Assembly: GCA_916048055.1 (NCBI GenBank)
Contig: CAJZHL010000005.1
Span: forward strand, 992,001-1,056,000
Source: Pedinophyceae sp. YPF-701
Lineage: Eukaryota; Chlorophyta; Pedinophyceae
Direction of reading: 5' to 3'
DNA length: 64,000 nt
Part shown: positions 47,532 to 53,827 of the stretch, piece after piece
Position numbering within the stretch: the stretch's first letter is position 1
How the letters are laid out: each line of letters starts with the position of its first letter
The notes under the pieces: generated by a model
Seen by the model: only the letters and a program-made list of their open reading frames with translations
The model's database searches: none
What the model was told of the DNA's origin: nothing
Program-made: the position numbers and the translations under genes

Positions 47532-50500
47532 ATGGTCCAGACATTTTACGCGCCGGGAATGACGGCGCGGATCCCTCGCAACGAGCGACGCTACTGCGTT
47601 CGTCGGTCGGCAGACGAAGGGGCTGGTCCTTCTTGTTGTCGAGGCAGGAGTGCAGCGCTGCTTGGACGGCTGCACTGCGTCGCAGCGCTGATCTTCGTGG
47701 TCTTAGCATGCGCTTGCGCGCGCGTCGGTGCAAGCGCGTCACACGTGCGCGGGGACATGCCGGATGAGGGCGCACGGGCGCTGCAGCAAACGTCTCAGGG
47801 AGGTCGCGAAACGAAGCTGACGGCGAGCGACGGGGCGTCGAGCGACTGGTTCGGCCAGGCGGTGGCAGTGAGCGGCGACGTGGCGGTGGTGGGCGCACCG
47901 CGGGACGACGACAGGGGCAGCAGGTCGGGGTCGGCGTACGTGTATGAGCGGGCGCCGAACGGGACGTGGGCGGTAGCGGCGAAGCTGACGGCGAGCGACG
48001 GGGCGGCGGACGACTACTTCGGCGATGCGGTGGCGGTGAGCGGCGACGTGGCGGTGGTGGGCGCGTACAGCGACGACGACAGGGGCAGCGCCTCGGGGTC
48101 GGCGTACGTGTATGAGCGGGCGTCGGGCGGGACGTGGGCGGAGGCGGCGAAGCTGACGGCGAGCGACGGGGCGGCGGGCGACTTGTTCGGCTATGCGGTG
48201 GCGGTGAGCGGCGACGTGGCGGTGGTGGGCGCGTACGGCGACGACGACAGGGGCAGCAGCTCGGGGTCGGCGTACGTGTACGAGCGGGCGTCGGACGGGA
48301 CGTGGGCGGAGGCGGCGAAGCTGACGGCGAGCGACGGGGCGGCGGATGACTTCTTCGGCTGGGCGGTGGCGGTGAGCGGCGACGTGGCGGTGGTGGGCGC
48401 GCGGCGACGACGACAGACAGCAGGTCGGGGTCGGCGTACGTGTATGAATCGGACGGGACATGGGCGGAGGCGAAGCTGACGGTGAGCGACGGATGTGGTA
48501 TGACTCGCGCCGGCTACGGTGGCGGTGAGCGGCGACGTGGTGGTGGTGGGCGCGTACCGCTACGGCGCGTACGTGGCGACTCTGTTCTGAACTGGATCGA
48601 CAACTGCCGGCTGGTCGCGAACGCGAACCAGACGGACACCGACGGCGACGGCGTGGGCGACGCGTGCGACGACGACGACGACGGCGACGGCGTGCTGGAC
48701 AGTGCTGACAACTGTCCCCTCGTGGCGAACGCGAACCAAACCGACACCGACGGGGACGGTGTGGGCGACGCGTGCGACGATGACGACGACGGCGACGGCG
48801 TGCCGGATGCGCAGGACAACTGCGTGTCTGCAGCGAACACGAACCAGACCGACACCGACGGCGACGGCGTGGGGGACGTGTGCGACGACGACGACGACGA
48901 CGACGGCTTGCTGGACGCGGACGACAACTGCCCACTCGTGGCGAACGCGAACCAGGCTGACATCGACGGCGACGGTGTGGGCGATGCCTGCGACGACGAC
49001 GACGACAACGACGGCGTGCTGGACACACAGGACAACTGTCCGCTGGTCGCCAACCCCGACCAGCTCAACTCCGACGGCGTGGGCTTCGGGGATGCGTGCG
49101 ACGACGACGACGACAACGACGGCGTGCCGGACGCGGAGGACAACTGCCCGAAGATCGCCAACGGGAACCAGGCCGACACCGACGGCGACGGCGTGGGCGA
49201 CGTGTGCGAGGACGACGACGGCGACGGCGTGGCGAACGCGCTGGACAACTGCGTGTCGGCGGCGAACGCGAACCAGACGGACACCGACGGCGACGGTGTC
49301 GGAGACGCGTGCGACGACGACGACGACGGCGACGGTGTGCGGGACACGCTGGACAACTGCAGGCTGGTGGCGAACGCGGACCAGACGGACACCGACGGCG
49401 ACGGGGTAGGCGACGCGTGCGATGACGACGACGACGGGGACGGCGTGCTGGACGCTGACGACAACTGCAGGCTGGTGGTGAACACGAACCAGACGGACAC
49501 CGACGGCGATGGTTTTGGTGATGCGTGCGACGACGACGATGATGATGACGGCGTGCTGGACGCGGACGACAACTGCCCACGCGTGGCGAACCGCAATCAG
49601 ACGGACACCGACGGCGATGGCGTGGGCGACGCCTGCGAGGATGACGATGGCGACGGTGTTCTGAACGCCCTGGACAACTGTCGCTTGGTCGCCAACGCCG
49701 ACCAGGCAGACCTCGACGGCGACGGCACGGGGGATGCGTGCGACGACGATGTCGACGGTGACGGCGTGCTCGAGTCGACGGACAACTGCCCGCGCGCCCA
49801 AAATGCCGACCAGACGGACATTGACAACGACGGCGTGGGCGATGCATGCGACGACGACAGGGACGGCGACGGCGTGCTCAACGAGGTCGACAACTGCGTG
49901 GACGTCCCCAACGGCGCCCAGGCCGACACGGATGGCGATGGCATCGGCGACCTGTGCGAGGACGAGGACGGGGACGGTGTGTTCGACGTGGTGGACAACT
50001 GTGTGGGGGTGTTCAATCCGGGTCAGGAGAACAACGACGGGGACGCTGCGGGCGACGCGTGCGACGGCGACGACGACAACGACGACATCCTGGACGGGGA
50101 TGACAACTGCCCGAAGATTGCCAACTTTGACCAGACCGACACCGACGGCGACGGAGTCGGGGATGTGTGCGAGGACGACGACGGCGACGGGATCGAGAAC
50201 GCGCTGGACAATTGTCCGGACACGCGCAACTCCGACCAGGCCGATACCGACGGTGACGGCGAGGGCGACGCGTGCGACCTTGATGACGACAACGATGGTG
50301 CGCGGGACTCGATTGACAACTGCCGGCTGGTGGCGAACGCGGACCAGATGGATATCGACGGTGACGGTGTAGGGGATGTGTGCGACGACAGCGATGGCGA
50401 TGGCGTTGTCGACGCAGAGGACAACTGTCCCTACGACTCGAACGCGGGGCAGCTTGACACGGACGGAGACGGGGCGGGCGATGCGTGCGACAGCGATGAT

Positions 50501-53500: not shown

Positions 53501-53827
53501 ACGTCACCGGACGACATTTTGCGGGAGTTTGAGAATGACGTGAAGGACTTCATCTGCCCGCTCTCTCTCTACTTGCCCGAAGACCCCGTCCGCGCGAGCG
53601 ACGGGCGTATCTATGAGCGGAGCGAGATCGAAAACTGGATAACGGCTTGCTTGGGCGGGGGACGCAGGATCACGTCGCCGATGACGAGGTTGGTCATGCA
53701 AAGGGACCTAGTCCCGCAGCCGCAGCGCACAGAGGAGCTCGAGCGGCTCATACAGGGCGTTAGAAATCGGCTGGATGACGCCGGGAAGAGCCGCCTGGAG
53801 GATATCCTCGCCGATTATCGCAGCTGA
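47532..53827 (+). CDS. receptor-like protein: FG-GAP and TSP3 repeats, TM, protein kinase, U-box
   Basis: The start at 47532 precedes a hydrophobic signal/anchor ([20 protein letters not shown]). Four intact FG-GAP repeats follow, then a fifth in broken frame (48395-48590), 22 thrombospondin type-3 repeats, a Pro/Ala-rich linker and, after splicing 51367/51493, the join [21 protein letters not shown] leading to VGRRRRILQ. The transmembrane helix ([20 protein letters not shown]) is followed by basic RKRRR. Kinase: [33 protein letters not shown] in place of [13 protein letters not shown]. After 52977/53186 a helical region leads to a U-box: [46 protein letters not shown]. The intron at 52626-52754 has a GC donor. 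Kinase plus U-box resembles plant U-box kinases; the ectodomain does not. Whether the two halves form one protein depends on the frame break. Confidence 0.8.
47812..48590 (+). repeat. FG-GAP (integrin-alpha-like) repeat array, about 180-nt units
   Basis: Units read [20 protein letters not shown], then [20 protein letters not shown] and AYVYERAxxGTWAEAA, repeated four times with high nucleotide identity. A fifth unit has lost small pieces (2-nt losses near 48400, 48416 and 48515), changing frame. FG-GAP units form beta-propeller blades, often calcium-binding. Confidence 0.88.
48594..50924 (+). repeat. 22 thrombospondin type-3 repeats, about 108-nt units
   Basis: The unit [20 protein letters not shown] then [12 protein letters not shown] recurs 22 times (counted by DNC). 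It is a calcium-binding TSP3 wire with two Cys per unit. Units differ slightly, so this is an old array with some homogenisation. The reverse strand carries a long open frame only because of the repeat. Confidence 0.93.
50952..51300 (+). repeat. Pro/Ala/Gln linker, three units of about 111 nt
   Basis: The 37-residue unit begins [13 protein letters not shown] and ends [13 protein letters not shown]; it occurs about three times, the third diverged. It probably forms an extended stalk between the TSP3 array and the membrane-proximal module. Confidence 0.9.
51996..52145 (+). repeat. duplicated juxtamembrane motif in receptor kinase
   Basis: Two adjacent 25-residue segments, [19 protein letters not shown] and [19 protein letters not shown], lie between the transmembrane helix and the kinase. 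Each has an amphipathic core (SRFxxxFxTxGARS) that could bind a partner or the kinase. Confidence 0.75.

Follow-up and report, generated by a model that had tools for sequence, protein, structure and literature searches.

Gene structure at the locus

The window, by which we mean the whole stretch of 64,000 nucleotides analysed here, corresponds to positions 992001-1056000 of contig C5 from Pedinophyceae sp. YPF-701, a core chlorophyte whose genome was surveyed over 27.9 Mb in 32 contigs. This organism has since received the name Akinorimonas japonica, with marine sand as its habitat (PMC12574857). On the + strand of the window lies a gene for a putative receptor kinase with a U-box (47532-53827), whose parts follow each other as signal sequence, FG-GAP_2, TSP_3, stalk, transmembrane (TM) helix, kinase and U-box. 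An earlier note on this DNA had claimed these domains in this order and on this strand, and both hydropathy and Pfam scores over the cut-offs bear it out, with FG-GAP_2 (PF14312) at 255.5 bits in 4 stretches (cut-off 23), TSP_3 (PF02412) at 654.2 bits in 22 stretches (cut-off 25), Pkinase (PF00069) at 48.5 and 53.3 bits on two exons (cut-off 31.7) and U-box (PF04564) at 31.0 bits (cut-off 21.4).

The gene model has four exons, at 47532-51367 (exon 1, interrupted), 51493-52625, 52755-52977 and 53186-53827. Exon 1 opens with the start codon and an N-terminal signal or anchor sequence (47532..47732), whose hydrophobic stretch at about 47676-47732 has a hydropathy peak of 2.37, and this N-terminus is kept in a paralog, the second copy on contig C14, as MIQTFYVPAMTARSP. 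It is followed by FG-GAP_2 blades 1-4 and the beginning of blade 5 (47805..48404), defined by PF14312 and by matches within the same genome, and by the broken remainder of blade 5 (48398..48589), which has several small indels and frame changes and after which, by comparison with the paralogs L029 and L032, blades 6-7 and the linker are missing. An array of TSP type 3 repeats in 22 stretches (48590..50923) and a Pro/Thr/Gln-rich stalk with internal repeats (50924..51331) come next, and the exon closes with the first strand of a juxtamembrane domain (51332..51367), which is kept in paralogs and corresponds to strand 1 in the AlphaFold2 model of the paralog on contig C6.

Intron 1 (51368..51492; GTAAGT...GCAG, GT-AG, phase 0, 125 bp) is found at the same position in both copies on C14 and in those on C12 and C6. 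Exon 2 begins with the remainder of the juxtamembrane domain, which is putatively SEA/ferredoxin-like (51493..51792), continues through the TM helix and a following RKRRR (51877..51951; hydropathy 2.32, aligned across four copies) and ends with the kinase N-lobe and the part of the C-lobe up to the HR of HRD (52225..52625, the 48.5-bit match). Intron 2 (52626..52754; GCAAGA...TGCAG, 129 bp) is of the GC-AG type and splits the Arg codon of HRD; its donor is GC in the window and in L029, whereas L030 and L032 have GT there. The catalytic loop makes up exon 3 (52755..52977, the 53.3-bit match), and intron 3 (52978..53185; GTGCGA...ATGCAG, GT-AG, 208 bp) has an acceptor set by the four-copy comparison, the first candidate at 53146 having been dropped because the C12 copy has no AG there, while 53185 fits all four. 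Exon 4 holds the end of the C-lobe and a linker (53186..53548, by alignment), the U-box (53549..53722; PF04564, alignment and plant U-box structures matched by sequence) and the stop codon (53825..53827).

Related genes in the genome

A U-box survey of the YPF-701 genome gave 31 candidates, all of them scored, and 24 matches. At least 4 of these 24, on C5, C14 (two) and C12, are preceded on their own strand by TSP_3 and FG-GAP_2, and a chance juxtaposition of the domains was rejected on the strength of this shared order and strand. The best 150 of 377 TSP_3 and 150 of 381 FG-GAP_2 candidates were scored, so that the numbers of repeats given are minimum values and weaker arrays near another U-box could be missed. 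Besides the window, the copies are L029 (C14:649.8-655.9 kb), L030 with L031, which form the second C14 copy (C14:636.7-646.5 kb), and L032 (C12:375.8-383.6 kb); L029 and L030 are on one strand, with about 3 kb between them.

The intact evidence comes from L029, since the window copy has a broken propeller. In L029 the signal sequence, 7 FG-GAP_2 blades, 21 TSP_3 repeats and the stalk lie within a single uninterrupted frame, and its four-exon model yields 1,911 aa in which FG-GAP_2, TSP_3, Pkinase and U-box are all over the Pfam cut-off. The frame of L032 changes once, within the TSP3 array, and in L030 the FG-GAP and TSP3 blocks alternate and the frame changes at two places, while exons 2-4 are open in all four copies. 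Judged by these sequences, the receptor-kinase/U-box architecture is real despite the damaged window copy. A fifth gene, on C30 (deposited model P0122), has a signal sequence, stalk, weakly similar juxtamembrane domain, TM helix, kinase and U-box, and a paralog on C6 (L053) runs from a blade through TSP3, stalk and juxtamembrane domain to the TM helix and a short tail, with no kinase in the stretch read.

The same survey turned up other loci with these domains. Eight U-box matches form an array on the + strand at C6:715-778 kb, with kinase-like matches adjoining in the three loci read. Very long TSP3 arrays lie near the contig starts at C3:0.5-38 kb and C26:1.6-13 kb, their open frames reaching 8,126 and 7,647 residues. 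FG-GAP_2 repeats are also numerous at C3:694-701 kb, C3:1283-1288 kb, C30:188-194 kb, C29:11-24 kb and C6:600-607 kb, where about 16 kb to either side hold no U-box match, and some of these repeats are in frames of up to 5,488 residues. Within the window, a neighbouring gene on the strand opposite to the U-box kinase (54737-56728 and 54166-54834, both -) encodes two UBA domains (PF22562/PF00627), with Aida_C2 in a neighbouring frame, and a second Aida_C2-like piece, below the cut-off, lies at 57568-58005 (-).

Kinase, U-box and predicted topology

As judged from substitution rates, the kinase and the U-box are under purifying selection. The ratio of nonsynonymous to synonymous rates (dN/dS), calculated by the Nei-Gojobori method for all six pairs among the window copy, L029, L030 and L032, is 0.105-0.240 for the kinase and 0.344-0.445 for the U-box; the juxtamembrane domain gives 0.166-0.330 and the linker 0.255-0.405. 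The HRD, DLG and GYADPEY motifs that had been claimed for the window kinase are all present, and together with the ATP lysine and the alpha-C glutamate they are kept in all four copies; the C30 copy has DLG and an activation segment reading GYTDPAY. DLG had been singled out as an oddity of this kinase, which did not hold up, as every one of the five family members has it and DVG or DFG occurs in related kinase-U-box proteins. In the U-box, FICP, DPV, DG..YER and TSPMT or TSPIT are kept, the core in the window being CP[IL], DPV, DG..YER, W and TSPMT.

By hydropathy and gene models, a signal sequence, an ectodomain and a single TM helix lie N-terminal to the kinase, as is expected of a receptor-like kinase (RLK); this is a prediction, and in the window the frame is broken between the blades and TSP3. 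We infer a single-pass receptor-like topology with the kinase and the U-box on the inside, and the proposal of such a topology in the earlier note is supported.

The juxtamembrane domain and intron 1

The claim that the ectodomain and the kinase/U-box lie in one gene is supported, as the most likely arrangement, by intron 1 and the domain that surrounds it. Intron 1 is 125 bp long in the window and 116-127 bp over the four copies (125, 116, 123 and 127), with splice sites conserved in all of them. In L029, exon 1 ends in FSMSMLVQFS and exon 2 opens with the remainder of the juxtamembrane domain. In the C6 paralog intron 1 is in frame, so that its blade or blades, TSP3, stalk, juxtamembrane domain and TM helix form one open frame, and the deposited C30 model P0122 splices at the point corresponding to intron 1 (within about 3 residues), joining both parts.

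AlphaFold2 modelling of the C6 domain, with seven sequences and the in-frame intron included as a loop, predicts a beta-alpha-beta-beta-alpha-alpha-beta fold with a mean predicted local distance difference test score (pLDDT) of 82.5; for comparison, the order in a SEA/ferredoxin-like fold is beta-alpha-beta-beta-alpha-beta. The strand equivalent to the end of exon 1 belongs to the sheet in this model, and its first half has a pLDDT of about 92. The juxtamembrane domain straddles intron 1, which ties the ectodomain to the kinase, and one gene per copy appears most likely. A model of P0122 by the same method gave a good kinase and did not resolve the juxtamembrane part. The Pfam SEA profile had no match at E<=1 in L053, which holds the whole domain, in a search where HMMER filters drop most weak matches. 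SEA domains are cleaved at the beta2-beta3 hairpin, and a basic motif lies within this hairpin of the juxtamembrane domain here; by eye about half of the copies have a furin-like R-X-X-R in it, which we regard as a lead. A genome search with the juxtamembrane domain only (E up to 0.1; all 12 candidates scored) gave clear matches in C5, the two C14 copies, C12 and C6 and weak ones (E 0.009-0.05) in C28, C29 and C10, with C19 and C30 not among the matches.

Weighing the gene models

The window copy is probably a member of a four-gene family of very long type I single-pass receptor kinases, with the ectodomain outside and an RLK/Pelle-like RD kinase and a U-box inside. Several observations weigh against this reading. 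Blade 5 of the window copy (about 48398-48589) contains several small indels, with frame changes in the order A-C-A-C, and frame changes are seen in three of the four ectodomains in the assembly, L029 alone being clean. The Trp of the U-box helix, present in the window, C12 and C30, is replaced in both C14 copies (His in 2 of 5), and the membrane topology is a prediction from hydropathy. The juxtamembrane match of C30 is weak by sequence, with E 9.8e-5 in a wider search and none in the juxtamembrane-only search. For the second C14 copy, the deposited protein (P0121, 620 aa) begins only at an internal Met of exon 2 (MNVPSDVSV) and has no ectodomain, which is mild evidence against. No YPF-701 protein of 1,051-3,344 aa is found among the best 120 of 1,111 matches to the L029 kinase-U-box or among the best 120 of 6,348 matches to the L029 ectodomain. 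In a search with the window kinase-U-box (best 120 of 2,137 matches, 366-1,163 aa), the YPF-701 rows are P0121 and P0122 only, and the window, L029 and L032 copies seem to have no deposited kinase-U-box model.

The deposited proteins would fit a pair of genes at each locus, one for a secreted FG-GAP/TSP3 protein and, downstream of it, one for a membrane kinase-U-box protein that starts in exon 2 as P0121 does, given that P0121 begins at MNVPSDVSV and that a full-length YPF-701 protein is absent from the matches listed for the two L029 queries. We consider this quite improbable. The gap from the ectodomain frame to exon 2 is merely 116-127 bp in four copies and has conserved GT/AG sites, two genes would sever juxtamembrane strand 1 and leave P0121 without a signal sequence, and the frame is continuous in the C6 paralog and P0122 is joined across the corresponding point. 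P0121 uses the same later junctions as derived here, including intron 2. On the one-gene reading, which we prefer, we take the deposited protein set to be incomplete here and P0121 to be truncated.

Where one continuous gene model had been claimed for the window, the domains and their order stand, but a clean reading through the copy does not, with blade 5 broken and blades 6-7 missing. The propeller of the window copy is damaged, or misassembled or misread. Blades 6 and 7 and the linker, which L029 and L032 have, are lacking from it. Splicing around the damaged blade was set aside, as the 26 skipping GT-AG pairs that are possible on paper prove nothing, because such motifs recur in every blade. 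It is conceivable, though less than an even prospect in our judgement, that the family member in the window is a pseudogene in decay, with a broken ectodomain and a kinase and U-box that can still be recognised, and this would be compatible with the family as proposed. The indels and frame changes of blade 5 and the loss of blades 6-7 and the linker point that way, and the indels are several and of differing lengths, which is more than one base-calling slip. Against decay, the kinase and U-box of the window are open with their splice sites kept, and the window kinase has a dN/dS of 0.105 against L030 and 0.180 against L032, within the range of the other pairs. The published reads for YPF-701 are Illumina and Oxford Nanopore (PMC12574857). 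The damage falls in GC-rich repeats, where we would expect an assembly of these two read types to be weakest, and the frame changes of L030 and L032 are likewise confined to repeats.

Relatives and known systems

Among the matches listed for the window and L029 queries, plant and charophyte kinase-U-box proteins predominate in the best ones to the kinase-U-box part from outside YPF-701, with identities of about 27-36%, and for the L029 query the second and fifth places go to barley kinases that have no U-box. FG-GAP_2 and TSP_3 are absent from all nine U-box rows listed for L029, and no other chlorophyte is named among the U-box rows of the matches listed. For the ectodomain (best 120 of 6,348 matches), every row that names an organism names bacteria; by our own count FG-GAP_2 and TSP_3 are combined in 23 of these 120, and none of the 120 has a kinase or U-box Pfam family. 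The named bacterial hosts of proteins with the same two repeat families in one chain are Acidobacteriota and a Planctomycetia metagenome-assembled genome, most rows being without an organism name.

In two trees, the five YPF kinases form one clade beside the plant RLK and plant U-box (PUB) kinases, the branch uniting plant RLK and PUB kinases receiving 91/83 in the first and 83/72 in the second. These trees are to be read with the caveats that long YPF and bacterial branches meet, that the second tree leaves out four long or gappy rows and that the rows were chosen by hand among the matches listed. The best tree keeps YPF apart from the PUB kinases, and an approximately unbiased (AU) test does not reject a clade of both (p 0.223). 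By sequence, BRI1 and BAK1 come nearest to P0121 among the solved kinases, followed by a LysM receptor kinase and SymRK, and the modelled kinase of P0122 appears closest in fold to RLKs and IRAK4.

Plant U-box kinases (PUB33/35-type, akin to receptor-like cytoplasmic kinases) have the layout USP, coiled coil, kinase and U-box and, to our knowledge, no signal sequence or TM helix. Their RLK/Pelle-related kinase is directly followed by a C-terminal U-box, as is the putatively RLK/Pelle-related kinase of the YPF family; unlike them, the YPF family has a predicted signal sequence and TM helix, and its kinases are in a clade of their own in the trees. USP (PF00582) had no match in the window pieces (E<=0.1) or in the L029 protein (E<=0.01). 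The novelty that had been claimed over plant U-box kinases therefore stands for the fusion with an ectodomain and TM helix and falls for the kinase-then-U-box order, which is common to plant and charophyte PUB kinases. As far as our searches show, that fusion would be the only new part. A Closterium protein with leucine-rich repeats (LRR), kinase and U-box (P0004) was considered as a rival receptor-U-box fusion and is read as a fused gene model, because the LRR runs into the middle of a USP-like stretch that its relatives have without LRR. A search of the open-access literature with matching terms, subscription papers being outside its scope, found no title or abstract opening that describes this architecture, and the view that no receptor of this order is known agrees with the absence of anything comparable among the matches listed and the open-literature titles.

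Plant RLKs such as BRI1, BAK1, SymRK and FERONIA share with the YPF family the order of signal sequence, ectodomain, TM helix and RD kinase. Their ectodomains are LRR, malectin, LysM or lectin, whereas the YPF family has an ectodomain of FG-GAP_2, TSP3 and a putatively SEA-like domain and an additional C-terminal U-box. RLKs and PUB proteins also form partnerships as separate proteins, as in FLS2-PUB12/13 and SRK-ARC1, and PMC8875423 describes ARK2-PUB9 as another. In such pairs a receptor kinase acts with a U-box E3 ligase on two proteins, while the YPF family would have both on one polypeptide.

Membrane E3 ligases of the PA-TM-RING or ZNRF3 type have an ectodomain, a TM helix and the E3 domain, and differ from the YPF family in having no kinase and a different ectodomain. 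Their layout resembles that of a putative second membrane E3 in this genome, the open frame L055 (C19:720.9-722.4 kb, -), with a P_proprotein domain, a juxtamembrane-like region, a TM helix and a C-terminal C3HC4 RING. The juxtamembrane similarity of L055 (E 5.5e-4, 23% identity) extends over a stretch that includes the TM helix, and its identity as the same domain was dropped because C19 is absent from the juxtamembrane-only search, which makes the RING link a lead only.

Proposed mechanism and meaning

Our best reading is that the family represents a lineage-specific fusion of receptor kinase and E3 ligase, as though a plant RLK and a PUB kinase had been combined in a single chain. Outside the cell, the tip would be a propeller of seven FG-GAP_2 blades, followed by a long calcium wire of TSP3 repeats, a Pro-rich stalk and the putatively SEA/ferredoxin-like juxtamembrane domain. 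The propeller and the TSP3 wire may hold a binding head far from the membrane, where the propeller could contact a ligand or another surface, and clustering, movement or tension passed on through the wire and the juxtamembrane domain might activate the RD kinase. The kinase would then phosphorylate itself and a partner, and the U-box could load an E2 in cis and ubiquitinate the receptor or a bound substrate, which would couple signalling to turnover within one chain. Calcium binding, kinase and E3 activities, substrates, ligand and sensing are all part of this proposal as predicted properties.

The same ectodomain could instead belong mainly to a calcium-dependent adhesion or recognition protein, for cell-cell contact, mating, prey or substrate, whose kinase-U-box part would serve only its own turnover. 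We find this somewhat doubtful. The ectodomains resemble, among the matches listed, FG-GAP_2/TSP_3 proteins whose named hosts are bacteria, the number and order of repeats vary strongly between copies while the kinase is conserved, and the same ectodomain plan recurs in the C6 paralog, where a short tail follows and the stretch read contains no kinase. However, every catalytic residue of the kinase has been kept under purifying selection in four of four copies, which argues for a signalling output.

With regard to the proposed receptor-E3 fusion, receptor kinases and U-box ligases in plants are separate proteins that find each other. It is a tentative and, taken as a whole, rather unlikely idea that a chlorophyte lineage built one-chain ectodomain-kinase-E3 receptors independently of land plants and placed a similar juxtamembrane-TM unit on a RING ligase, the juxtamembrane domain perhaps being a proteolytic or force-sensing switch. 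The family proposed here, as a natural case of both on one chain, would offer a simple system in which to study the coupling of phosphorylation to ubiquitination at a receptor. It would also be an example of a single-celled green alga, not a streptophyte, making receptor kinases of its own with bacterial-style propeller and TSP3 modules as the ectodomain, and of a juxtamembrane-TM unit that can carry different outputs, namely a kinase-U-box, a short tail and perhaps a RING.

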